A stretch of DNA of 64,000 bases from contig NC_092569.1 of assembly GCF_037975245.1 (NCBI RefSeq), positions 22,720,168-22,784,167 on the forward strand, given 5' to 3'. The translations under genes and the position numbers were made by a program. This document shows, piece after piece, positions 1 to 59,575 of the stretch. The stretch's first letter is position 1. Each line of letters starts with the position of its first letter. The notes beneath the pieces are model-generated. The model saw only the letters and a program-made list of their open reading frames with translations. It was not told where the DNA came from and did no database searches. The DNA comes from Apostichopus japonicus. Taxonomy: Eukaryota; Echinodermata; Holothuroidea; Aspidochirotida; Stichopodidae.

Positions 1-3000
1 TCAACAATCGACTTATCCGAGAGATTGCAGAGAAGTTCAGGAGCAATGTTCATCCCATAACTCTTCCGGTGTCTTCGAGATCAAACCAGATGGTTATCCG
101 GATCCATTTGAGGTTTACTGTGATAACACTGACAGTTCCGGTGGATGGACGGTATGTCTTTGGTTTATTGATCTTCTATCAACAATTGTCAGACTGAAAC
201 AATCATGTTCACAGCAGCTGGAAGAGTATTAACGATGTTACTTACATAGGCGTTGGAGGCGGGGGGGGGGAGGGGCTGGGGTGGCTGCAGCCCCACAACC
301 ATTTTTTTTGGTGAAACTTCGGGCAATATGCTGAGAATTTTTCGGGCACCAACTGAAAGAAGAAAAAATTGCAGTGTGTTTTTCAATATTTTTGTTGAAA
401 ATTCGGGCTATATGCTGAGAATTTTTCGGGCACCTACTGAAAAAAGAATAATTTGCAATGTGTTTTTCATTTTTGGGGGGCTGAAAATTCGGGCAATGTG
501 CTGAGAATTTTTTCGGGCACCTACTGAAAAAGAATATTTTGCAATGTGTTTTTCATTTTTTGGGGGGCGAAAATTCGGGCAATATGCTGAGAATTTTTCG
601 GGCACCAACTGAAAGAAGAAAATATGCAGTGTGTTTTTCATTTTTTTGGGGGGTGAAAATTCGGGCAATATGCTGAGAATTTTTCGGGCACCTACTGAAA
701 AAGAATAATTTGCAATGTGTTTTTCATTTTTTGGGGGGCGAAAATTCGGGCAATATGCTGAGAATTTTTCGGGCACCTACTGAAAGAAGAATAATTTGCA
801 ATGTGTTTTTCATTTTTTGGGGGGCGAAAATTCGGGCAATATGCTGAGAATTTTTCGGGCACCTACTGAAAGAAGAATAATTTGCAATGTGTTTTTCATT
901 TTTTGGGGGGCGAAAATTCGGGCAATATGCTGAGAATTTTTCGGGCATCTACTGAAAAAAGAATAATTTGCAATGTGTTTTTCAATGGTTAAACTGATAT
1001 TATTATTATCGTTATTATTGTAACGACTTCCCCAATAATTCTAACCAATATGGAAGGGTAATAACACGGAATATATAACCAAAATTTTTCGCGCTCTCCG
1101 CGCGCGTTCAACATCTTAATGTGCATGTCAAATAGGCTTTCATCGGTTATCGGCATGTGATGTAAAACCGATGAATGCCTATATGATAGCACATTAACAT
1201 GTTGAACGCGCGCGGAGCGAACAAAAATTGTGGTTATATTTTTCGGGCAAGTCGTTACAGCCCCCCCCCCCCCCCAATCAAATTAGGCTCCTACGCCTAT
1301 GGTTACTAATATCGGTAACAATGTTATATATGTTTAAGTTACATTGTGCTATTCATTTATTTTTTAATTACCTAAAGACAGAGACGGCTGTGCTGGATGC
1401 CAAATATTACGCATTGAATGAAAGATCAGTAACTCTCAAATCATTTCGGTAACGACTCTGTCCATAGGTAATACAAAGGCGCACCGACGGGTCCATCGAT
1501 TTCAGGCGCGACTGGGACAGCTACAAGTCTGGCTTCGGGTTTCTCTCTCATGATTTCTGGCTCGGCAACGAGAAGTTGTCTTTCTTGACCAACCAGAAGA
1601 AATACCAATTGGTGATTGAGATAACCACATCAAGCGGTTACTTAATTCGGGTTTCTTACGATCATTTCCGTATAAGTGACGCCTTTAGTCACTTCAAGCT
1701 GGTCAACCTCGGAAACTATTCTGGAGAGAATACTGGTGAGTTATCACGGAAAAAAATAGATATAAACGCAATATTATACCCACATTTCTTAAAAGGCTTT
1801 AATATATGTGAAGATTACTTGTTTCGTGACGTCGTCAAACATTTCATTAGATGACAGATATGCATGGTCATCAGGGGAGATTCACTGACAAACCTCTCTG
1901 GCCCATTTGGTACATCCATCTATGGTCAACCATCGCTTTGATAAAATAATACATTTGAACTTTACTTATCAAACACTTCAGTCACTTCATTAGGTAACAT
2001 ACATTCCGAGTAACATTAATGTAATAATAATTCAAATTAATTTTATCTTACAGATGCCATAACATTCACTTCATTGACACCAGCAAAAGATTGTCAGGAA
2101 ATTTATGATGATGGTTCTAGAAACAACGGTATATACAGCATCAAACCAACCGGATGGACCGGGCCAGCATTTGAGGTATACTGTAACATGACTGACGGAG
2201 GAGGATGGACGGTAAGTGTTATAGCCTACGATAAGCACGGAGGTTACATCGTAAACTATATAGTTCATTGGTAGATCTTGCACTGGAATGCATTTTTCTC
2301 TAATGTAAGACTTACTTTAATCGTAACCATTCTTTTCACCGATCTATGTCTTATATTGGATTTTTCGTTATTTTCTTTGTCACTGTTCTTAATGATATTC
2401 GTTTTATATACAAGCACATTTTACATTGTACCGCAGTCTATTGACATTTATGCTTGTTGCGAATATCATATTTTTTATTCTTTTCCTCCATGATTGAGAA
2501 AGTTTGGTTTATTCTACCTTTTAACTCATTAAATTGCCAGATGAAAAGTTTGTACGTATCAAATTACCTTAAAAGAGTAGTTCATTTTGAGAATATGAGA
2601 TTTCAAATTTCACACCCGGGAGGCCACAAATATTATACACGTTTGTGTTATTAACTCCTTTTTTTCATTTTGAAATCTTTAAGGTGTTCCAACGACGTGT
2701 CGATGGTAGTGAGGACTTCTACCTTGGATGGAACAGCTACAAGCAAGGATTTGGAAATTTAAATATTAATTTTTGGCTCGGAAATGATAAACTTTATTAC
2801 TTGACCAACCAAAGGAGATATGAAATCAGAATCGACTTAGTAAATAGATACGGAGCTCCATACTACGCCAAGTTTGACTTTTTTAGGACAAACGACGAAA
2901 GCGACAACTATAGGTTATCCGGTGTTGGGACCTACAGTGGAACAGCAGGTTTGTAGCCTACACATATCCTTTAATACTAAATATGGTATTTCAGCATAAC

Positions 3001-4607
3001 TAGATAATGAGACACCACCAGGTTATCGTTTCATCGATACTACCTCTCTCCAAAAATATATTATTACTTCAGTTAATTATAGTATATATATTGACATCAT
3101 CTTAAGAATAAAGAAGTAGAAACAAGGTAAAAAGGCCAAGCAGATGAAAAATATATTTTATTTGTAATGAATAGCCTGAGAATGGAAAAATTGCATCAAA
3201 ATAGGAAATTACCTACAGTTGTCTGTTATAGTTTACCAGTTCCACAATCCTGTCAACATTGTTTAATACCTTCAAAATTGCACTGGCGGGAAACTAATTA
3301 TAAGCATCGTTGAACCATTAGTTAGAATCAACGACTTATAGGTGATACAGGCAGGGAGGAAATGCTGTCTGTGTCACCTATTATAAAAAGATTAAAGTGA
3401 GTCCAAAGAGAAAGCTATACACAAATTTGAACTTAAAATTCCTAGTATTCAAGTTATCTATCTACAGACGAGTTTTTGTTGCCTTTGTTCGTCATTAAAA
3501 GTAGAAAATAACTGACTGACATGCTCAGAACATTTAGAAATGATCTACATATCCTTACATTTGTTACTTCTCTGAAACGAATTCTGGCAGTGGGAGGAGA
3601 GCCTTGCACGGTTACATCTATTGCGCGAAACTTTTTTTTTTACCCAAGCCAATAATATAAGTAGATAATGAAACATGCAGTATTGACAATTCCAATAACG
3701 CTAACAATACACATGCAACAATTATGTTAATTTATTTCATCACAATGCATACATGCAATTACACCTCTCATACATTGGTTTACAATAACAAACCACGTAC
3801 GAATGTAGACACCAATACTACTGTGATTACTTAATAGTGCAATAACACAACAAGCGAATCTTACTCTGGAAAAAAATATGAGCATTATGTACATAGTTTA
3901 TTTAGTAGGTCTATACAAAATGACGATTTCCGCTTTTGTAATCAGCTAGATATATATTTAACGACTACATGATGATCCTCGATGATGAGATGCCTCTTAT
4001 TGATAATCACTGGAAGCTAATGATCTAGTACGGTGTGCAATAAAAGAGAGAATTATAGTCATAGGTGTAAATCTTACTACTATAAAATATTTATAAACAA
4101 CTAATACGGTATTTGGATTGTCAGTAACACTACGACCCGATAATAGCTATAAACCAAAGAAAAAGCACTGCAAGATCTTGTTTACCCTAACATTATATTT
4201 AAAAGTTTGCATATTGGAGTTGAAGTTAAAATAATTAAGCAACCAATCTGAGTATATGTTAGTGCGATGTAATTACAACAAATGAATTAAATAAGGTTTA
4301 GCATGTATCAGACGTACAACAGTTATATTGATGATTGGTATTGACGGTGTGTCTTTGTATTTGATTCTTTCTTCCAGGAGATGCTCTAAGTTATCACCTG
4401 AACCAGCAGTTTACAACAAAGGACCGAGACAATGACGTTCATAGTTCTTATAACTGTGCTGTTTATTATGATGGTGCCTGGTGGTACAAGAGTTGTTATT
4501 ATTCTAACCTGAACGGTATCTACGGGAATCAATACCTTTATTGGTATTACCTTCCCGGAACTTATTATTATGTCCAATTTACAGAGATGAAGATCCGCCC
4601 TATCTAG
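1..4607 (+). CDS. Gene A: secreted fibrinogen-related protein, half-FBG plus full FBG, 5' partial
   Basis: Five coding exons are visible: 1-151 (already inside an exon), 1468-1735, 2054-2211, 2684-2948 and 4378-4607 (TAG stop). All junctions are GT-AG and the frame is kept throughout. Exons 1-151 and 1468-1735 encode a first fibrinogen C-terminal (FBG) domain, with GGWT at the end of the first exon and RRTDGSIDF at the start of the second, but without the last FBG exon. Exon 2054-2211 starts with DAITF, which in B, C and D begins the TIL exon, and runs straight into TSLTPAKDCQ, which lies after the EGF module in B. TIL, TILa and EGF are therefore absent. The remaining exons complete a full FBG domain with the calcium-site motif DRDND and the pocket motif GAWWY, ending KIRPI. 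The signal peptide and linker exons should lie left of the window. Family knowledge suggests a secreted lectin that binds acetylated or sugar ligands; the ligand is unknown. Confidence 0.8.
300..990. repeat. Minisatellite, about eight copies of an 86-bp unit, in an intron of gene A
   Basis: The motif GCTGAGAATTTTTCGGGCAC recurs with starts near 330, 414, 500, 586, 672, 757, 843 and 929, a spacing of 84-86 bp. Each unit also has a G-rich run and TTTGCAATGTGTTTTTCA. It lies in the intron between 151 and 1468. The equivalent introns of B, C and D are only about 250-265 bp and lack it, so it is a local expansion in gene A. Open frames on either strand here are products of the repeat and I do not treat them as genes. 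Confidence 0.9.
1019..1259. mobile_element. Foldback or MITE-like element with long terminal inverted repeats
   Basis: The left end TGTAACGACTT (1019) is matched by its reverse complement AAGTCGTTACA (ending 1259). The inner parts also pair: CCGCGCGCGTTCAAC near 1098 against GTTGAACGCGCGCGG near 1201, and TTAATGTGC against GCACATTAA. The loop holds ATCGGTT and AACCGAT, which pair again. The whole 241 bp can fold into one hairpin with no coding capacity. It sits in the same gene A intron as the minisatellite and is followed by a C-run. I could not find a clear target-site duplication, so class is unknown. Confidence 0.65.
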
Positions 4608-7296: not shown

Positions 7297-7720
7297 CAGC
7301 AATGGTGAGAGTGACAACTACCGCCTGTCGGGACCTGGGACATACAGTGGAGCAGTAGGTGGGTAACATACTAAATATAAATGATTTGGTGGCTTCTGCG
7401 TTGTAAAGGATTTTCTTTCCTTAAGTTGGCTTAGGTTTGGTTACACTATCAGATTGTAATCTCTAACAAATATATGATATGCCTATCTCGCACTGAGCTT
7501 ATCGAGAGAATTATATAGCAAGCTGTTTGATATATAAAATTCCAAGCAGTATTATTTCTTTAGCATTTATAACTTACAATGTCAGCAAAATAAAATAGAA
7601 AGGAATTCCAACTTATAAACTATTATATACACACATATGGTATTGGAGAAAGATAACCAAGCTAACCCCGAAACGGATAATTGTGCAGACAAAACAATAA
7701 CAATGTGTAAAATTAAGTTG

Positions 7721-9224: not shown

Positions 9225-10440
9225 TGGTTATAATAATCGACACTGAACTGGATAGATAGTTATATTTCTAATCGTTTTCAATACACTTCTTACAAAAACA
9301 CTCCCTCTCAACTGGGAGAAATCCATTGTGGTGTCCCACAAGGTTCAATTTTAGGTCCTTTACTATTTAGTTTATATGTCAATGTTATACGCCAAGTTTC
9401 GGAAATTGCTAACATTATTCTATTTGCTGATGATACAAATATTTTCTTTGAATCACATGTAAATGTAAACTCTTTTCATAATAAAGTTTCTTTAGAACTA
9501 GATAAATTTAATGACTGGTTTGCTGCCAATAAACTATCGCTCAACACAGACAAAACTAATTACATAATCTTTAATACTTCCAGAACATTTAATTGGTATA
9601 AAGACATTATTATGGGAGGCAAAATTCTCAAGCAAGTTAACACTACTAAGTTCTTAGGGTTCCAGATGGATCACAACCTTTCCTGGTGTGCTCACATTTC
9701 AACAGTCTGCAACAAAGTTGCTAAAAATGCAGGGATTTTATCCAAATTAAAACACTTCTTGCCTCAACACATTTTAAAGACACTTTATCAAACCCTGGTA
9801 GTACCACATATTTCTTATTGTTCTATTATTTGGTCTGGCACGTATAAAACTAATCTCAACTCACTTTTATACAACAAAAGAAGGCAATCCGACAAATGTC
9901 ACGTGCTGCACCTCGTGATCACACCAGCCCTATAGTTAAGAATCTTAATTTATTGAAAGTCAATGACATAGTTCGTGTAAATATTGCCACCTTCACTTAT
10001 AAGGCGTGGAATGGACTACTGCCTAATGCTTTTCAGAATTACCTTATTAGTAATAGGGATTTACATTATCACAATACAAGATACGACGATAATGCGCATT
10101 ATTACACAACGATTACTTCAATAGGAATGTTAAGCTTAAGAAATCGTGCTATAAGAACTTGGAATTCTATAACAGAAATGAACAAAAATAAAGTATCAAA
10201 AAGATCATTTAGAAAATATTTAATTAAAGAAATCATTGCATCTTATTAATTCAAATATCATACTACTATTGATTTTTTTTGTGAACTGTAATATTTTCAT
10301 TTTCTTTTTTTTATTTTCATTTTTCAGGGAGTCTTCTACTTTGTTAAGCCAATATAGGTTTTTTAGAAGACTTCCTTTCACAATGTATATATTCACGTGA
10401 TAAAACAAATGAACCAAATCAAATAATAATTACTGTACGC
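9225..10440 (+). mobile_element. 5'-truncated non-LTR retrotransposon with reverse transcriptase 3' end
   Basis: An open frame from about 9249 to 9935 has the reverse transcriptase blocks GVPQGSILGPLLF (from 9330), FADDTNIF (from 9423; catalytic YXDD-type motif with F in the first position), NKLSLNTDKTNY and TKFLGFQMDHNLSW. A frameshift near 9870-9895 moves the rest into another frame, 9896-10249, with MSRAAPRDHTSPI, KAWNGLLPNAF and WNSITEMNK. The second part is the usual C-terminal tail of such elements, so both pieces belong to one damaged ORF2. A 3' untranslated tail of about 190 bp follows. The style suggests the CR1/Jockey group; the exact clade is not settled. It disrupts the last exon of psi1. 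Confidence 0.85.
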
Positions 10441-12337
10441 TTATTTTTCACGGCGCATGGTGGTACGATAACTGCTATTACTCTAACCCCAAAGGTGACT
10501 ACCACGCCAGTTAGGGCAGTGATTATAGCATCTATTGTTATAATATCCCATGATCGAATTATAAAATCAAATGTACTAAAATGAAGAATCGTCAAGTTAA
10601 ACCTGAGTAAGGGACAGCACTACCGCATAGGTTGTAGAAGTAGCCACAAAGTATGAAATGTCCGATCATTACATATAACTTTATGTGTTTTTGAAGAACT
10701 TGCGTTTGCTGGATACTAATGAATCCCATTGGCTATTAATTCTTCCACTAATTATATGATTCCTTTACTTGTAAACTTCAAAAGCCTTTTAAACACCGAG
10801 ATGACATTCTAGAATGTATCTTTGCTCCTTCTTCGAGTTACAATTATTTTTAAAGCATCTTAAAGCAAAGAAATATAAAAATTAAATTGATAAACGTGAT
10901 AAACAATAACAAGTGCTTGTTCGTTATTTATGGTAACCTGCATGACCCTATAATTTCAAGGGCAGAGGCGCATCAAAGTATTGTACAGGTAACATAAGTC
11001 ACTGTTAGTGATACAAAAATAATATAAGCTCCTACGCAAGACATATCTATTAGCACTTACAACTGAACAGTTCTGAAGTGTCTAAAGCGGTTACATAACA
11101 AACGCAATTATAACTCTGGAATAAAATGACATGAAAGCATGCACACAATCAGAACACTTAAGTTACGGAAGCATATTGCTGCCACAACATTTTTTAAATG
11201 ATGAAACAACGTTTCGAAATACGAAACACTTTTTTTTGCAACTACAAAAATGATGTTTCTTCCTGGCAGCATTACGCTTCCGTGTTAAACGCTATTAATT
11301 AAAAAAAAAATATATATTTATATAGATAAACACCTAATGAGGGTACAACCTTATATTGAATAAAATTGATACACAAGATATATATCATCATTTAAACCTC
11401 ATAGGTGCACGGTTGTGAATAGGCCGCAGTGGTTTACTTTGAAACACGATTTCTAAAACCGTACTACCCTAACAAAATTACGATAGCACAAAGCATTCTC
11501 CTGCATCGTAATATTCAATGTAAGAAGTATTTTCTTCATTTCTATTATCCGTTCTTTGCTTGAATTCACTGTATTATTGTCTTTTAGTTTCGTACATTGT
11601 AAATGATAAAGAAAAAAAGGAAATATATCCTAGGACACGTGGACTCAGTAGGACAACGGAATATCCCAGGTATGTATTGTTCACTTATTGTGTGTATCAC
11701 AGCTCTGAAGAAAATCTTGCTATACTTTTGAAAAGAAAGGGGTAGTATAGGAAGAATTTCGGTTTTTGGGGTTTAACACGATTGTCGTACCTCGCCTATG
11801 TTCTAACTTGATAGTTTTACTTAATTGTTTGTCAACACTCTTGCACCTCAGCCCATTTCTGAACAGGTAAAAGCGAAATTTAATACAAGACAAATGTGGT
11901 GCAACATAATATGGGAAGTGTTCATTTTAAATTTTGTTTTAAAATCATCAATCCGTTTATATGGTAATGTTTTATAACGAGTAAAGGCATGGACGTCGAC
12001 AACAATTAAAAAGTGAGGAGCGGTACATAAATTGACTGAACACGGATAAAACTGAAGGAGTTTGCGCGTACCGAGCGCTTGGCGCAAAGTTTTTTTTTCG
12101 GGTGGCGTCAAAGGATTCGCCTTAGGGCCCCTGACAGGGTCCAGGGCAAAAGCCCGGCGGCGATTTTTCCCCAAACAGGTTTGCAATTACGGAGTTTTTA
12201 GCCAATTAGATTGCTCGTGACGTCATCATAAATAATAACCATCGCTTGGAAGTTCGAAGACGTATACTGAGTTACACACTGACACCTGATTGAGTCTAGC
12301 TAAGGGATTTCCCTTCAAACGAACTAACTTTAATTTT

Positions 12338-17044: not shown

Positions 17045-26677
<9,633 letters not shown>

Positions 26678-35300: not shown

Positions 35301-38300
35301 AAAAATACGTTCTGTTTTCATTGAGTAAAGATCAAGGCGGCTGTGCTGGATGCCAAAATTTAAAGCATGGAATGATAGATCAGTGACTAACAATCCATTT
35401 CGGTAACGAATCTGTCCATAGGTAATACAAAGGCGCACCGACGGGTTTATCGATTTCCAGCGCGACTGGGACAGCTACAAGTCTGGCTTTGGGTTTCTCT
35501 CTCATGATTTCTGGCTCGGCAACGAGAAGTTGTCTTTCTTGACCAATCAGAAGAAATACCAACTTGTGATTGAGATAACCACATCAAGCGGTTACTTAAT
35601 CCGGGTTTCTTACGATCATTTCCGTATAAGTGACGCTTTCAGTCACTTCAAGCTGGGCAACCTCGACAATTATGCTGCAGAGAATACTGGTGAGTTATCA
35701 CGAACAAATTAGATAACAACGCAATATCATAAAGGCTTATATATATAAATGAAGATGTATTGTTTCGTGACGTCGTCAAACATTTCATAAGATGACAGAT
35801 ATGTAGGGTCATATGGGAAATATCACTGACAAACCTCTATGGACCCATTTGGTACATCCCTCTATGGTCAACCATCGTTTCGAAAATAATACATCTGAAC
35901 TTTACTTATCAAAAACTTAATTTACTTCATTAGGTTACATACATTCCTAGTAACATTAATGTAATAATAGTTCCGATTTATTTTATCTTGCAGATGCTAT
36001 AACATTCTGTCCCAGCAATATGGACATTGATAACTGCAGTACCGCGTGTCAACGAACTTGTGAAGCTCCAGGAATCTGTCAGGATGAGGTCTGTACTGAT
36101 GGTGAAGTCTGTTTTTGTCCCGATGGATTCTTCATGAAGGGATCTCACTGTGTACCTCCTGAACAATGTGGATGTTACGTATCAGAAGGACAGACGGTCG
36201 TACCAGTAAGTACAGGAGCCATCCATTACAGAAATACAAAACGACTCTTTACTTTAATGTAGAAATTGTACGTTACTACTTTGTTATATATAACTTTAAT
36301 CTCAATTTAAATAATTGCTACAAATTGGAGTGAGAGATGACAGCATATTGTGATATCAACACGTGTTAAACCATAACATACCATTTTTCTGACAGGAAGG
36401 TGACTTTTTCGTGAATTTCGGATGTACAAGAAAGGGTGTTTGTAATAACGGACTGATCATCTGGGATGAAGGTTACGCATGCAGTCCGAAAGCGGGGTGT
36501 GGCGTACGAAATGACATGCGACAATGCTATTGTGCTAATGGCTACAGAGGGGACGGTGTAAATTGCACGAGGCCACCTAAAGATTGTCAGGAAATTTATG
36601 ATGATGATAGTACCAGAATCAACGGTATATACAGAATCAAACCAACCGGATGGACCGGGTCAGCATTTGAGGTATACTGTAACATGACTGACGGAGGAGG
36701 ATGGACGGTAAGTGATATAGACTAATACGAACTTAATACTTTATAAGTAGATCTTGGACTGATACATTTTACTCTGGTTTAAAAGTTACTTTAATCTTAA
36801 CTATTCTTTTCATCGATCTATGTCAGATCTTGGATTGATCATCATTTTCTTTGTCTTTGTATTCAGTTTTATATTTTATAAATTTTCATATGATTAGATA
36901 TTTTACCGCAGTCTATCGACATTTATGCATTATGCGACTATCATCATGTTTATTCTTCACCTCGATGACTGTGATATTGAAATTAATTTTTATTATACTT
37001 ATTTCATTGCCTAGGTTGAAACTTTTCACCTGTCACATTACCTTAAAAGGTAATTTAAGAATATGAGATTTCAGACTTTACATCGGAAATTCCACCAATG
37101 TTTGTTTTATTAGCGATATTTTTATTTTCATTTTGAAATTTTAAAGGTGTTCCAACGACGTGTCGATGGGAATGAGGACTTCTATCTTGGATGGGACAGC
37201 TACAAGCAAGGCTTTGGAAATTTAAGTATTAATTTTTGGCTCGGAAATGATAAACTTTATTATTTGACCAACCAAAAAAGATATGAAATGAGAGTCGACT
37301 TAGTGAATAAATTAGGAGATCCGTACTACGCCAAGTTTGACTTTTTTAGAATAAACGATGAAAGCGACAACTATCGGCTATCCGGTCTTGGGACCTACAG
37401 TGGAACAGCAGGTTTGTAGTCTACATATCTCTTTCAAAACTAAATACGGCATTTCAGCCTTACTAGTAGGGAGACAACATAACTACGACAAACTGTTAAC
37501 ACCAACAGGTTATCGTTCGATCGATACTTAGTCTCTCTAGAAATATGTTATAACTTCATTTAAAGAATACTATATATTAACATCACCTTAAGGAATAAGG
37601 CCAGGATGGCAGTCAGATGAAAGATATATTATACTTGAAGAAGATAGCCGGATTGGCGGAATGGAAAATTGCTTGAAAATAGGAAAATTCCTACAGTTGT
37701 TTTTTATAGTTTACAAGTTCCACGATCCTGCCAACATTTTCTAATATATACACTGGCTGGACACTAATTGCAATCATCGTAGAACAATTAGTAAGAATCA
37801 ATGATTAACTACATACATACAGGAAGAAAACGCTGTCTGTATCACATTTAAAAAAAACTGATAAAACTCAGGCCACATAGGATATGGTAAGAAGGCTAAA
37901 CAATACCTAAATTTTAACTTACAATTCATTGTATTCAAGTTATCTATCTACAAACGGGTGTTAATTGTCTCCGTTTGTCTTTAAAAGTAGTAAATAACCG
38001 ACGGACCTGCTCAGAACATATAAAACTGATCTACATATCCTTACATTTGTCAATTTCTTTACGACGAATTCTGGGGGTGGTACAACGGTTAGATACATTG
38101 AGCGAAACTTGTTTTTTTTTTCATTTCATTGATCCAAGTGAATAATATAAGTAAGAAGATAATAGAAGATGCAGTATTAACAATTCCCAGAGCGCAAACA
38201 ACGAGTATTTTTCTCATATGCAACAGTTATGTTAACATATTTCATCACTATGCATACATGTAAGTACACCTCTCATAAATTGGTGTTCAATAATAAACCA

Positions 38301-49600: not shown

Positions 49601-51972
49601 AAAAACTTCGGTTTTTATTGAGTAATGATCAAGACGGATGTGCTGGATGCTTAAAATTTAATGCATCGAATGAAAGTGACTAACAAACCATTTCGGTAAC
49701 GACTCTGTCCATAGGTAATACAAAGGCGCACCGACGGGTCCATCGATTTCAGGCGCGACTGGGACAGCTACAAGTCTGGCTTTGGGTTTCTCTCTCATGA
49801 ATTCTGGCTCGGCAACGAGGAGTTGTCTTTTTTGACCAACCAGAAGAAATACCAACTGGTGATTAAGATAACCACATCAAGCGGTTACCTGATCAGGGTT
49901 TCTTACGATCATTTCCGTATAAGTGACGCCTTCAGTCACTTCAAGCTGGGCAACCTCGGCAATTATTCCGGAGAAAATACTGGTGAGTTATCACTAATAA
50001 ATTAGATAACAATGCAATATCATACCCACATGTCTTACAATGCTTAGATATATGTGAAGATGTATTGTTTCGTGACGTCGTCAAACATTACATAATATGA
50101 CAGATATGCAGGGTCATCTGGGGAATATCACTGACAAACCTCTCTGGGCCCATTTGGTACATCCATCTATGGTCAACCATCGTTTCGATAAAATAATACA
50201 TCTGAACTTTACTTATCAAACACTTAATTCACTTCATATTGTTAAATACATTCCCAGTAACATTAATGTTACAATAATTCCAAGTAATTGTATCTTACAG
50301 ATGCTATAACATTCTGTCCCAGCAATATGGACATTGATAACTGCAGTACCGCGTGTCAACGAACTTGTGAAGCTCCAGGGATATGTCAGGATGAGGTCTG
50401 TGCTGATGGTGAAATCTGTTTTTGTCCAGATGGATTCTTCATGAAGGAAGCTGACTGTGTACCTCGTGAACAATGTGGATGTTACGTATCGGAAGGACAG
50501 ACGATCGTACCAGTAAGTAGAGGAGTAATCCATTTCAGAAAAGCAAATCGATCCTTTACTTTTATGTAGGAACCGATCATTACTACTTTCCTCTATCTCG
50601 GTCGATCAGGTGCAATAATAAAAACTTAATTAAGCCGTTACTGCCGCATTGCAGTCATACGGTAACGAAGGTTTCCAATTTCATATCTTGGCTAAAAGAG
50701 AAGTACGATTTGATATATCTTGAAATGTGGTAGGTTTAATAATGATTTTCTAAGGAGAGGGCAGCATATGACGATATCAACCAAGTATGAAAATATAAAA
50801 TGCGACTTTTCTTATAGGAAGGTGAATTTTTCGTGAATTCTGGATGTACAAGAAAGGGTGTTTGTACTAACGGACTGATCATCTGGGATGAAGGTTACGC
50901 ATGCAGCCCTAAAGCGGAGTGTGGCGTACGAAATGACATAAGACAATGCTATTGTGCAAATGGCTACAGAGGGGACGGTGTAATATGCACTAGACCACCT
51001 AAAGATTGTCAGGAAATTTATGATGATGATAGTGCCAGCAAAAGCGGTATATACAGAATCAAACCAACCGGATGGACCAGGTCAGCATTTGAGGTCTACT
51101 GTAACATGACTGATGGAGGAGGGTGGACGGTAAGTAGCAGTCTGACACGCGTTCATAATATAATTAATATATGTTAATTGTCAAGTTTGACGATCGGATA
51201 AGTCTAAAAGATTGATCTTTCACTGGTATGTATCGTAACATAATTTTCAAAGGACGACGTAAGGAAGCCCTAATATCTCCTAAATGGGGGTTCAAAGTGA
51301 TATTGTCGACCTGGTCGAGAAGCATAAAAAATAGCCGGTAAAGATCTATCTAATCAAACATCGAGTAACTCATACTGATAAATATCTTCTTCTTTTTTTA
51401 TTTCATTGGGAGGAGATTTTCATACTTCACGAAAATATTTTAAATCAAATTTATAATGAAAAGCTCTTGATATTGATAAAACAATTTCGTATTGTTCACA
51501 GTGCTCGTTTGACATTATTTGTGTTTCCCTTTTCATTATTTCCTCATTGAAGGTGTTCCAGCGTCGCCAAGATGGTAGTATTGACTTTTACCGCAACTGG
51601 AGCAGCTACAAAGTTGGTTTTGGCAATCTTTCAACTGAATTTTGGCTGGGAAACGATAAATTGTATTACTTGACAACACAAAAGAGATATAGAATCCGAA
51701 TTGATTTAGTGACTAGAGAGTATAATTCGTACTACGGCAAGTTCGATTTCTTCCGCATCAATGATGAGAGTGACAACTACCGACTGTCGGGACTCGGTAC
51801 TTACAGTGGAACCGTAGGTGGGTACCATTCTAAATGTGTATGCTCTAGTTGCGTATGTGTTTCAAATAGATCTTCTTTCCTTAAATATTGTTGAGGATTG
51901 TTTGCACTATCGGATTTCAACACCTAACAAATCTGTTATATTCAAATTATGCACTGAGCTAATCGAGAGATT

Positions 51973-52042
<70 letters not shown>

Positions 52043-53580
52043 TACTACCAATCGGTATTATTTTCTTCAGCATATATCAATTTATGCAAAATAAAACACA
52101 TTAGATTTGCAACATATACACAATTTTAATCAAACATATAGTATCAAAGAAATAACCCCGGAAACGGGTTATTTTGCTCATAAAATAGTAATAATAAGCT
52201 AGGCTTAAAATAACTTTCGTGATAAACAGGAACACGATCATATCTGAATCGCAGCAAGAAAGGGGACTATATATATTTAATTATTTACCACAATCATAAA
52301 GTGAACACAGCTGACAATATCTACTTTTCTTTATATGATGTACTTCGAGAAGAGGTTTGGTTACTATAATGATTTGATTTGCAGAATTTGCAGAAAGATA
52401 ATGAAGCAGATTGGAACTGTTTCCATATACGAACAGTAAACAATGGTTCAAACAGCGTTGGAAGTAATTGCATGGTAATTGAAAACTGAATGAAGATATT
52501 TCGAAGGAAATATTTCTAGCGGTGACTGTCTTAAGCCGACAAACGTGAATTTAAAGAAATACGTACATGCCACTTTTTACATTACAAAATTACAGACATT
52601 TAATAAAACATGTGTGACATTAAATCGTCCCGAGGAAAAATTATAAGAAAAGTCGAAGACAAAACGTATCTATCTCAGACACCAATAAATATTCAATGGG
52701 AGGGCTATGGGCTTTTGCATATTTTTACCCTACTGGACAGTATCGCCGTACTGCATTTCACATTAATCGCATGATGTTGTTTATTGCGGTCTATTGATAT
52801 AAGGCTATACAGTTAAAGGAGCTCCTCGACATGCATTTGATGTCTAGAACAATTGAACAACTGGCTTTTTGTTACCATTGATAATTCTGATCAATAATTA
52901 CCAATGATGTATGTTCACAACAATGCTTCCACAATAATAAATTTCAGAAATTATGTCATAGTGATACAATTATAAAACACATGGAAATAATAACATAATA
53001 AATATCAATAATGATAAATGAATAGAATGTGTCTAGACCTTAGTCCTTAGTAGTCATAACAATTTGATGAATTTTAACAAGGCTAATGTCACCTAACTGA
53101 AGATCAGAAATAGAAATGGTGCATATGAATAAATAACTTAAAAAGTCTACAAACCAAAATATTTAATCAGATATATTCTTGTGAGGAAATAAGCCTTATC
53201 TCCCCCCCCCCCCCCTCTTTCTCTCTTATTATGTTCAACCCTTCTTCAATTGTTAATACATCTGATGTATATGTATATACGCTAGCTTGACATGCTGTGC
53301 TTCATTCTATTCCACAGATGAGAGAAGCAGTCCTGATGGTAAATTCTTGCGTTATCACCTGAATCACGAGTTCAGTACCAAAGAGAGGGACAACGATGCT
53401 TATAGTAATAACTGTGCGGTTAGTTATCACGGCGCATGGTGGTACGATGATTGCTATTATTCTAACCTCAACGGTGACTACCACGCCAGTTTAAATAGTG
53501 ATTCTAGCATCTATTGTTATTATATCCCAGGACCGAATTATAACATCAAATATACTGAAATGAAGATTCGTCCAGCTTAA
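43658..53580 (+). CDS. Gene D: secreted FReP with a divergent C-terminal FBG, 538 residues
   Basis: Eight exons: 43658-43735, 48819-48864, 49287-49459, 49715-49982, 50301-50512, 50818-51129, 51553-51817 and 53318-53580 (TAA). They sum to 1617 bp with the same phases as B and C. Exons 1-6 are very close to gene C: signal peptide MISKFYSMFQVLFFLW, half FBG (residues about 42-189), TIL (189-259), TILa-like and EGF-like (CSPKAEC, CYCANGYRGDGVIC). Exons 7-8 belong to another subtype. RRQDGSIDFYRNWSSYK replaces RRVDGSQDFYIGWDSYK, TREYNSYYGKF replaces NRYGAPYYAKF, and the last exon begins DERSSPDGKFL, uses ERDND in place of DRDND, has GAWWYDDC, and ends KIRPA. The same subtype is seen in psi1. The product is predicted to be secreted with altered ligand preference (inference). 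Confidence 0.87.
43736..48818. other. Intron 1 of gene D (about 5 kb)
   Basis: It aligns with intron 1 of B and C and holds a local tandem duplication at about 44985-46480. A 69-codon frame at 47242 resembles one in intron 1 of B at 20505, but the C copy is disrupted, so I treat this as shared intron DNA and not as a gene. Confidence 0.75.
44985..46480. repeat. Diverged tandem duplication of about 0.72-0.84 kb in intron 1 of gene D
   Basis: CTTAATCAGGCTTAGAAAAG at 44997 recurs at 45717; GTCACTTAAAGTTAAA at 45206 recurs at 45952; GTACTGTCAAATTAATTACT at 45401 recurs near 46243. The changing offset (720 to 842) shows indels between copies. Intron 1 of B and C has a single copy. Confidence 0.75.
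51976..52039. repeat. (TA)n microsatellite in the last intron of gene D
   Basis: About 64 bp of TA repeats in the intron between the last two FBG exons. Confidence 0.95.
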
Positions 53581-59343: not shown

Positions 59344-59575
59344 AGCAACAAAGCACTCCCAATGGTTATGCTCAAACGTATCATAGGAACGATCAGTTCT
59401 CAACAAAGGACCGAGACAATGATGCTTATAGTGGTGACTGTGCGCTTTATTATCTTGGTGCCTGGTAGTACAATAGCTGCTATTATTCTAAACTGAACGG
59501 TCGCTTTTATTGGTATTACCTTCCGAGAGTGATAGTTACCTTCAATTTGTAGAGATGAAATTCGTTCAGTCTAAA
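59344..59575 (+). pseudogene. psi2 last exon: orphan FBG C-terminal exon with a premature stop
   Basis: After a TTTCTTTACAG acceptor the frame reads QQSTPNGYAQTYHRNDQF, then [22 protein letters not shown], and is stopped by TAG at 59466-59468 where functional copies have TGG (second W of the pocket motif WWY). Homology continues (YNSCYYSKLNG, FYWYYLP) to about 59575, with a small deletion that shifts the final EMKIRP segment. No upstream FBG exons remain nearby, so it cannot be spliced into a normal FReP from this locus. Confidence 0.8.

Follow-up and report, generated by a model that had tools for sequence, protein, structure and literature searches.

A spacer-less subfamily of tandem fibrinogen-domain genes in Apostichopus japonicus, most likely founded by a single deletion from cysteine to cysteine

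How did a gene lose three domains from its middle and keep its reading frame? The question is raised by a 64,000-nucleotide stretch of the Apostichopus japonicus genome (contig NC_092569.1, here C9, positions 22720168–22784167; hereafter the window, numbered from its first nucleotide). Repeats and exon-wise tblastn revealed four plus-strand paralogs in the window, designated genes A, B, C, and D, which are direct repeats with a spacing of about 12 to 22 kb. Gene A occupies positions 1–4607, its start being cut by the window edge; gene B begins at about 22.08 kb, gene C at 35.01 kb or slightly earlier, and gene D at 49.31 kb or slightly earlier. Genes B, C, and D share one order, in which two exons for fibrinogen domain 1 are followed by a TIL exon, an exon that encodes TILa, EGF, and the start of fibrinogen domain 2, and two exons that complete domain 2. 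Gene A differs from these spacer-bearing genes in that only the residues DAITF are left of the spacer.

Five exons of gene A (e1–e5) lie in the window. The first exon of domain 1 (1–151) has its 5′ part upstream of the window; the upstream part of this exon and a preceding small exon were located by tblastn in locus L013. The second exon of domain 1 (1468–1735; phase 0 to 1) precedes the fused exon (2054–2211; phase 1 to 0), which comprises DAITF, a linker, and the first exon of domain 2. The second exon of domain 2 (2684–2948) is followed by the last exon (4378–4607), which contains the TAG stop codon at 4605–4607 and is the most variable of the exons compared. None of the four window genes has the third, C-terminal fibrinogen exon in domain 1, and phmmer aligned domain 1 of gene A with no more than roughly the first two thirds of solved fibrinogen domains. 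Domain 2 of gene A is a complete fibrinogen C-terminal domain: the protein matches Pfam Fibrinogen_C (8.2e-101) with domain 2 spanning profile positions 2–220 of 221, and phmmer aligned domain 2 in full with tenascin-R (8.4e-57), FIBCD1, and ficolin chains. Besides Fibrinogen_C, Pfam gave a COLFI match under its cut-off, and the gene A protein had no match to TIL, TILa, or EGF at E values up to 1. The corresponding region of gene B yields Pfam TIL, TILa, and EGF_3. TILa lies slightly under its curated cut-off (26.0 versus 27 bits), and EGF_3 scores 29.6 against a cut-off of 28.5 when the region is scanned alone and 27.7, just under the cut-off, within the longer gene B protein. A simple hydrophobicity scan upstream of gene B (20500–22080) gave one unconvincing signal-peptide candidate.

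The first-pass annotation of this sequence had reported that DAITF in gene A is joined in frame to TSLTPAKDC, which in gene B lies in the middle of the next exon. Exact mapping agrees to the base. Gene A retains ATAACATTC (2059–2067) and continues with ACTTCATTGACACC from position 2068, which places the joint at 2067/2068. The equivalent sides of the joint in gene B are positions 23594 and 24249, so the interval missing from gene A is 23595–24248 (654 bp), as had been claimed. The residues on the left are DAITF in genes A, C, and D and DSITF in gene B; those on the right are TSLTPAKDC in gene A and TSLIPAKDC in gene B. Intactness of the frame and of both outer splice sites, also part of that annotation, is borne out by the acceptor (ttatcttacag) and donor (gtaagt) of the fused exon and by a reading frame that is open through e1–e5 to the stop codon. 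In gene B, the missing interval begins in the TIL exon (23581–23792) and ends in the exon for the end of TILa, EGF, and the first part of domain 2 (24078–24395). The TIL exon, intron, and EGF/fibrinogen exon remain unfused in gene C (35994–36707) and gene D (50301–51129).

The breakpoints themselves are bare. Comparison with gene B and with L037, the other nearest relative that retains TIL (TIL+), found no repeats at the breakpoints; microhomology at the joint is 1 bp against gene B and 0 against L037, in which the last EGF cysteine codon is TGT. Such a match of 0–1 bp is more in keeping with end joining or template switching than with recombination involving repeats. The same interval measures 541 bp in L037, and the gene B intron within it holds a long AT run. 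The fusion fits one deletion that created an arrangement without TIL, TILa, and EGF, as had been proposed, but 654 bp does not hold as the ancestral length: this length cannot be fixed at that value and, judged by the two nearest relatives, would have been 541–654 bp. Immediately right of the joint, Jukes-Cantor distances are 0.115 for A–B, 0.229 for A–C, and 0.231 for B–C.

The deletion first described is real, but its most telling feature was missing from that description: it is an excision from cysteine to cysteine. The first codon of the missing interval in gene B (TGT) encodes the first TIL cysteine and the last codon (TGC) encodes the last EGF cysteine. Between these limits lie 11 + 7 = 18 cysteines, which are all the cysteines of the spacer, and the first cysteine of domain 2 is kept in gene A after eight retained codons. 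Excision from the first to the last spacer cysteine thus removes all 18 together and leaves none unpaired. The phases of the exons add a second constraint. In gene B, the TIL exon has phases 1 and 0 and the EGF exon has phases 0 and 0. Since the phases of the TIL exon are unequal, its simple loss or skipping would break the frame, and a cut within both exons is one way round this problem. These phases (1–0 and 0–0) also exclude an isoform that skips the TIL exon, which had been considered as a candidate. When breakpoints are paired across the two gene B exons, one third of the pairs keep the frame. Pairs that keep the frame, remove all spacer cysteines, and leave domain 2 whole number 118 of 67,734 (0.17%; 0.52% of the in-frame pairs) under a rule that was set after the joint was known, and the observed joint belongs to these 118. 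The match between breakpoints and cysteines suggests that the joint is the outcome of selection among deletions, directed against free cysteines.

We searched the whole genome (671,581,487 bases in 35 contigs) for the joint with a 26-base pattern, allowing up to 3 mismatches and, through the symbol Y, one C/T difference. The joint was found 10 times, always with 0 mismatches and on the plus strand, between 22.41 and 23.23 Mb of C9; no further joint occurs anywhere in the genome within 3 mismatches, and the reversed pattern gave 0 matches in the genome as a control. These ten joints fall in nine genes because locus L017 holds the joint twice. The fused genes are interleaved with genes that carry TIL and EGF across 0.82 Mb. 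Two pairs, L014/L016 (99.8% alike) and L018/L020 (99.5%), are each near-identical over more than 9 kb with members about 0.67 Mb apart, and may be recent segmental duplicates or retained haplotypes; if each pair is counted once, seven fused genes remain. Full alignments of three pairs (L013–L019, L015–L014, and L017–L019) showed 86–97% likeness in long blocks, and distinct fused genes this different are not one sequence read repeatedly. The ten joints are strong evidence that the assembly has not collapsed here and that the joint arose once and was then amplified. What had been presented as a peculiarity of gene A is indeed found there, but it is the hallmark of an amplified subfamily. The count of ten rests on the pattern search. 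The best 40 of 228 fused-exon candidates, 150 of 551 TIL candidates, and 150 of 1192 exon-2 candidates were scored, so family sizes are lower bounds.

Several observations identify the loss as the derived state. Of 53 copies of domain 1 exon 2, taken from at least 80 exon-2 matches whose 27 weakest members (15.6–18.5 Mb, 58–65% identity) were left unpaired with TIL exons, 42 have a TIL exon within 2 kb, 10 have a fused exon, and 1 has neither. The outgroup loci L022 and L023 contain exons for domain 1, TIL, EGF, and domain 2; in L022, Pfam places TIL above its cut-off and TILa and EGF_3 just below theirs. Genes that branch outside the group, located at 6.27, 11.07, 22.37, and 23.17 Mb, carry TIL and EGF exons in the same place with an intron between them. 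Because outgroup genes possess both exons, the short form is derived.

The descent of the fused genes was followed on either side of the joint among 31 loci (L013–L043); L040, L041, and L042, which have no recognisable domain 2 exon 2, were kept out of the trees, and L041 is also without a domain 1 exon. In the right-flank tree (joint to the end of e4, 28 rows), the nine fused rows form one clade (95/91). This clade adjoins gene B (locus L024) and L037 with support of 93/94, which falls short of the strong mark of the tool. The data of this flank reject a single clade for the 15 TIL+ rows of the ingroup (AU p 0.0016), an outcome that may be helped by five of these rows being of D type on a long branch. 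The left-flank tree (e2 to the joint, 29 rows) gives a less definite picture. Here the fused rows do not form one clade (two changes, with L021 outside), one fused clade is not rejected (AU p 0.29), and the fused rows branch outside the TIL+ ingroup; a grouping of fused genes with gene B and L037 costs 16.7 log units (AU p 0.066). The two flanks may differ in history through gene conversion or through a junction between two paralogs. Among the loci compared, the B-like linker start ACT(T/C)CA(T/G)TGA is common to the fused genes, gene B, L030, and L037 only.

Together, these findings indicate that the internal loss of domains is real and well preserved, and its origin is most likely single. 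The reading that we favor, with a probability of roughly 0.87, is that a single end-joining deletion arose in a gene resembling B or L037, was kept, and then spread by duplication. The ancestral product would have consisted of a truncated fibrinogen domain 1, TIL, TILa, EGF, and a complete fibrinogen domain 2. In one ancestor close to present-day gene B and L037, a double-strand break was presumably repaired by end joining with 0–1 bp of microhomology. The resulting deletion of about 0.54–0.65 kb would have removed the rest of the TIL exon, one intron, and the TILa/EGF half of the next exon, and would thereby have fused two half exons in frame. It probably survived because no cysteine was orphaned. 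In the predicted product, a short linker of about DAITFTSLTPAK replaces the disulfide-rich 123-residue spacer and carries the two fibrinogen modules. Tandem and segmental duplication would then have multiplied the fused gene to nine genes. Such a change would be expected to act on the distance between the binding domains and on their avidity, and to leave the binding site as it was.

The principal alternative is that the joint connects two paralogs: the TIL exon of one gene would have broken and been joined to the EGF exon of a neighbor, with the loss of at least one whole repeat unit in addition to the 0.6 kb. Array genes are direct repeats about 12 to 22 kb apart, and the nearest relatives of the fused genes differ between the left flank, where they lie outside the TIL+ ingroup, and the right flank, where they join gene B and L037. 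However, the placing found on the right is not firmly rejected by the left flank (AU p 0.066), and the same pattern follows from patchy conversion among TIL+ genes. In one intron, genes B and D are 97–99% alike along a stretch of about 150 bp, and in six of the eight 150-column blocks between about 3200 and 4290, gene A is nearer to gene C than to gene B, with one tie. Patchy exchange among genes of this family is therefore likely. Exchange of this kind and the discordant flanks lead us to keep the two-paralog junction as a rival, albeit an unlikely one.

A second alternative, which we regard as quite unlikely, accepts the fusion and holds that the fused genes are functionless, decaying by-products of array instability. 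In its favor, an in-frame stop interrupts e4 in both members of the pair L014/L016, which counts as one of the seven distinct fused genes. In the tblastn alignments, none of the other seven fused loci has such a stop; they are open, and splice sites are intact where examined, with the donors of e1–e4, the acceptors of e2–e5, and the terminal stop in place in all nine fused loci. Ratios of pN/pS also lie well under 1 in both fibrinogen domains. Over 21 pairs of seven fused genes they are 0.40 for domain 1, 0.22 for domain 2 (e3 + e4), and 0.44 for the last exon, and in five TIL+ genes they are 0.44, 0.21, and 0.56, respectively; the pairs are not independent, and conversion may bias the values. 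These 12 of 28 loci were chosen without near-identical copies and distant genes. The last exon carries the binding region in known fibrinogen lectins. Because the values are alike, fused genes are about as constrained as their TIL+ relatives, in which the last exon is likewise the more variable one; most fused genes are open and apparently under purifying selection.

The reverse polarity, with an ancestral short form and a later insertion of TIL-TILa-EGF, could draw on the position of the fused genes outside the TIL+ ingroup on the left flank. It is already contradicted by the genes at 6.27, 11.07, 22.37, and 23.17 Mb, which have TIL and EGF exons in the same place, and by the right flank, which rejects one clade of ingroup TIL+ genes (p 0.0016); it also needs two half exons and an intron to be brought into coding position, and we find it scarcely tenable. 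Least credible is an assembly collapse or misjoin, which the first-pass annotation had named as what would overturn the deletion: the array is highly repetitive, and segments 0.1–0.7 Mb apart are 98–99.8% alike so that some copies are possibly false duplicates, but the breakpoints are without a repeat (0–1 bp), the identical joint occurs in nine genes (seven after merging near-identical pairs), and the assembly is likely the one for which the text of PMC10344927 gives PacBio HiFi reads averaging 14.7 kb.

One genome here preserves, side by side, the states before and after an internal domain loss together with its exact joint, which makes the case unusually clean. Because the form without a spacer spread to nine genes, it becomes possible to ask if it has a use of its own, for example in immunity or gut regeneration.

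Comparison with known systems sets the family apart in its architecture. In FIBCD1, ficolins, tenascins, and tachylectin-5A, a single fibrinogen domain follows collagen, coiled-coil, EGF, or FN3 parts. The alignment of these proteins with domain 2 of gene A spans approximately residues 7–211 of 212, with four cysteines kept; genes in the family of gene A, by contrast, encode a truncated domain ahead of a complete one, and the TIL-TILa-EGF spacer is present in some and absent from others. Molluscan FREPs in the strict sense combine immunoglobulin and fibrinogen domains, whereas Pfam found no immunoglobulin domain in the joined exons, from domain 1 onward, of genes A and B, L017, and L022. The Sp185/333 (SpTransformer) proteins of sea urchins are unrelated to the fibrinogen-domain proteins described here. 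Their gene clusters are another array in an echinoderm, for which PMC5103432 describes short tandem repeats, large segmental duplications, and the deletion of genes; the change described here is the removal of domains within a gene. PMC2926785 lists exon fusion after loss of the intervening sequence among the mechanisms that yield new protein architectures, and describes direct examples of any of these mechanisms as rare. In that paper, domains are gained by fusing two adjacent genes, whereas here an internal spacer was lost within one gene. The kind of event is already known, and its precision, the preserved before-state, and the amplification make this locus a good test case.

Arrays of fibrinogen-domain genes have been noted before in sea cucumbers. 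The 2017 A. japonicus genome paper reports FREPs as the most expanded family, clustered and including a tandem cluster of 21 genes, and as up-regulated in visceral (gut) regeneration (PMC5638244). Those clusters are likewise tandem fibrinogen-domain genes and perhaps partly the same genes, and the passages on them mention neither an architecture of truncated domain 1, TIL, EGF, and domain 2 nor a spacer-less subfamily. A 2026 preprint on Holothuria glaberrima cites this finding, and a word search of its main text returned neither TIL nor EGF (PMC13228809). Among the papers listed by literature searches, titles and abstract openings describe no fibrinogen-TIL-EGF-fibrinogen family or spacer-less form, which is weak evidence of absence.

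Locus L017 has undergone a further step. At L017:4018–5831 (about 22410517–22412330 of C9), the unit of exon 2 and fused exon, about 1.08 kb, is present twice and in frame. With phases of 0 to 1 for exon 2 and 1 to 0 for the fused exon, the extra copy preserves the frame. The joined exons of L017 (497 residues) contain three Pfam Fibrinogen_C stretches, overlapped by a COLFI match that passes its cut-off. The predicted product, as read from these exons, is a half-domain, a second half-domain, and a full fibrinogen domain in series. We offer tentatively, and as more doubtful than not, the suggestion that the deletion created a symmetric and compact module (exon 2 and fused exon, phase 0 to 0) that is able to multiply without loss of frame, and with it a route toward binding proteins that carry several fibrinogen domains and change in valency. 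If true, this route would be under way inside an amplifying array of recognition genes.

Other features of the array deserve mention. Blocks repeated at 98–99.8% comprise L014/L016, L018/L020, and L028/L029 (about 0.67 Mb apart), L031–L033, L034–L036, and L026/L027, and represent either recent segmental duplications or haplotypes retained by the assembly. The intron between e1 and e2 of gene A is enlarged by eight copies of a tandem repeat of ~86 bp (271–984). This intron is long (about 1.0–1.3 kb) in eight of the nine fused loci and measures about 0.24 kb in L021, the locus that also strays in the left-flank tree. A candidate for a second, independent loss of TIL at 22590432 (L044), the one domain 1 exon 2 copy with neither a TIL nor a fused exon, was rejected. 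Its match to L042 ends shortly short of the TIL exon, and a TIL exon stands alone some 11.8 kb farther downstream; the sequences at 22590432 and 22602285 (L041) are likelier to be one gene, apparently split by an insertion or rearrangement, than the product of a deletion.

Gene D becomes far more distant after position 51129: over 51130–53574, likeness is about 40–50% in introns and protein identity is 76% in e4. With a left half that resembles the family and a right half that is distant, gene D looks chimeric, and a right half of D type is common to L026, L027, L035, and L036. Fragments of fibrinogen exons, remnants of further members, lie between the genes at 7298–7354, 10434–10598, and 59364–59525, and two of the three contain stops. 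Finally, exon phases in genes A–D allow exon 2, which ends in phase 1 (1468–1735 in gene A), to be spliced to the last exon, which starts in phase 1 (4378–4607 in gene A). Such a splice would complete domain 1 and represents a possible candidate for an alternative isoform.
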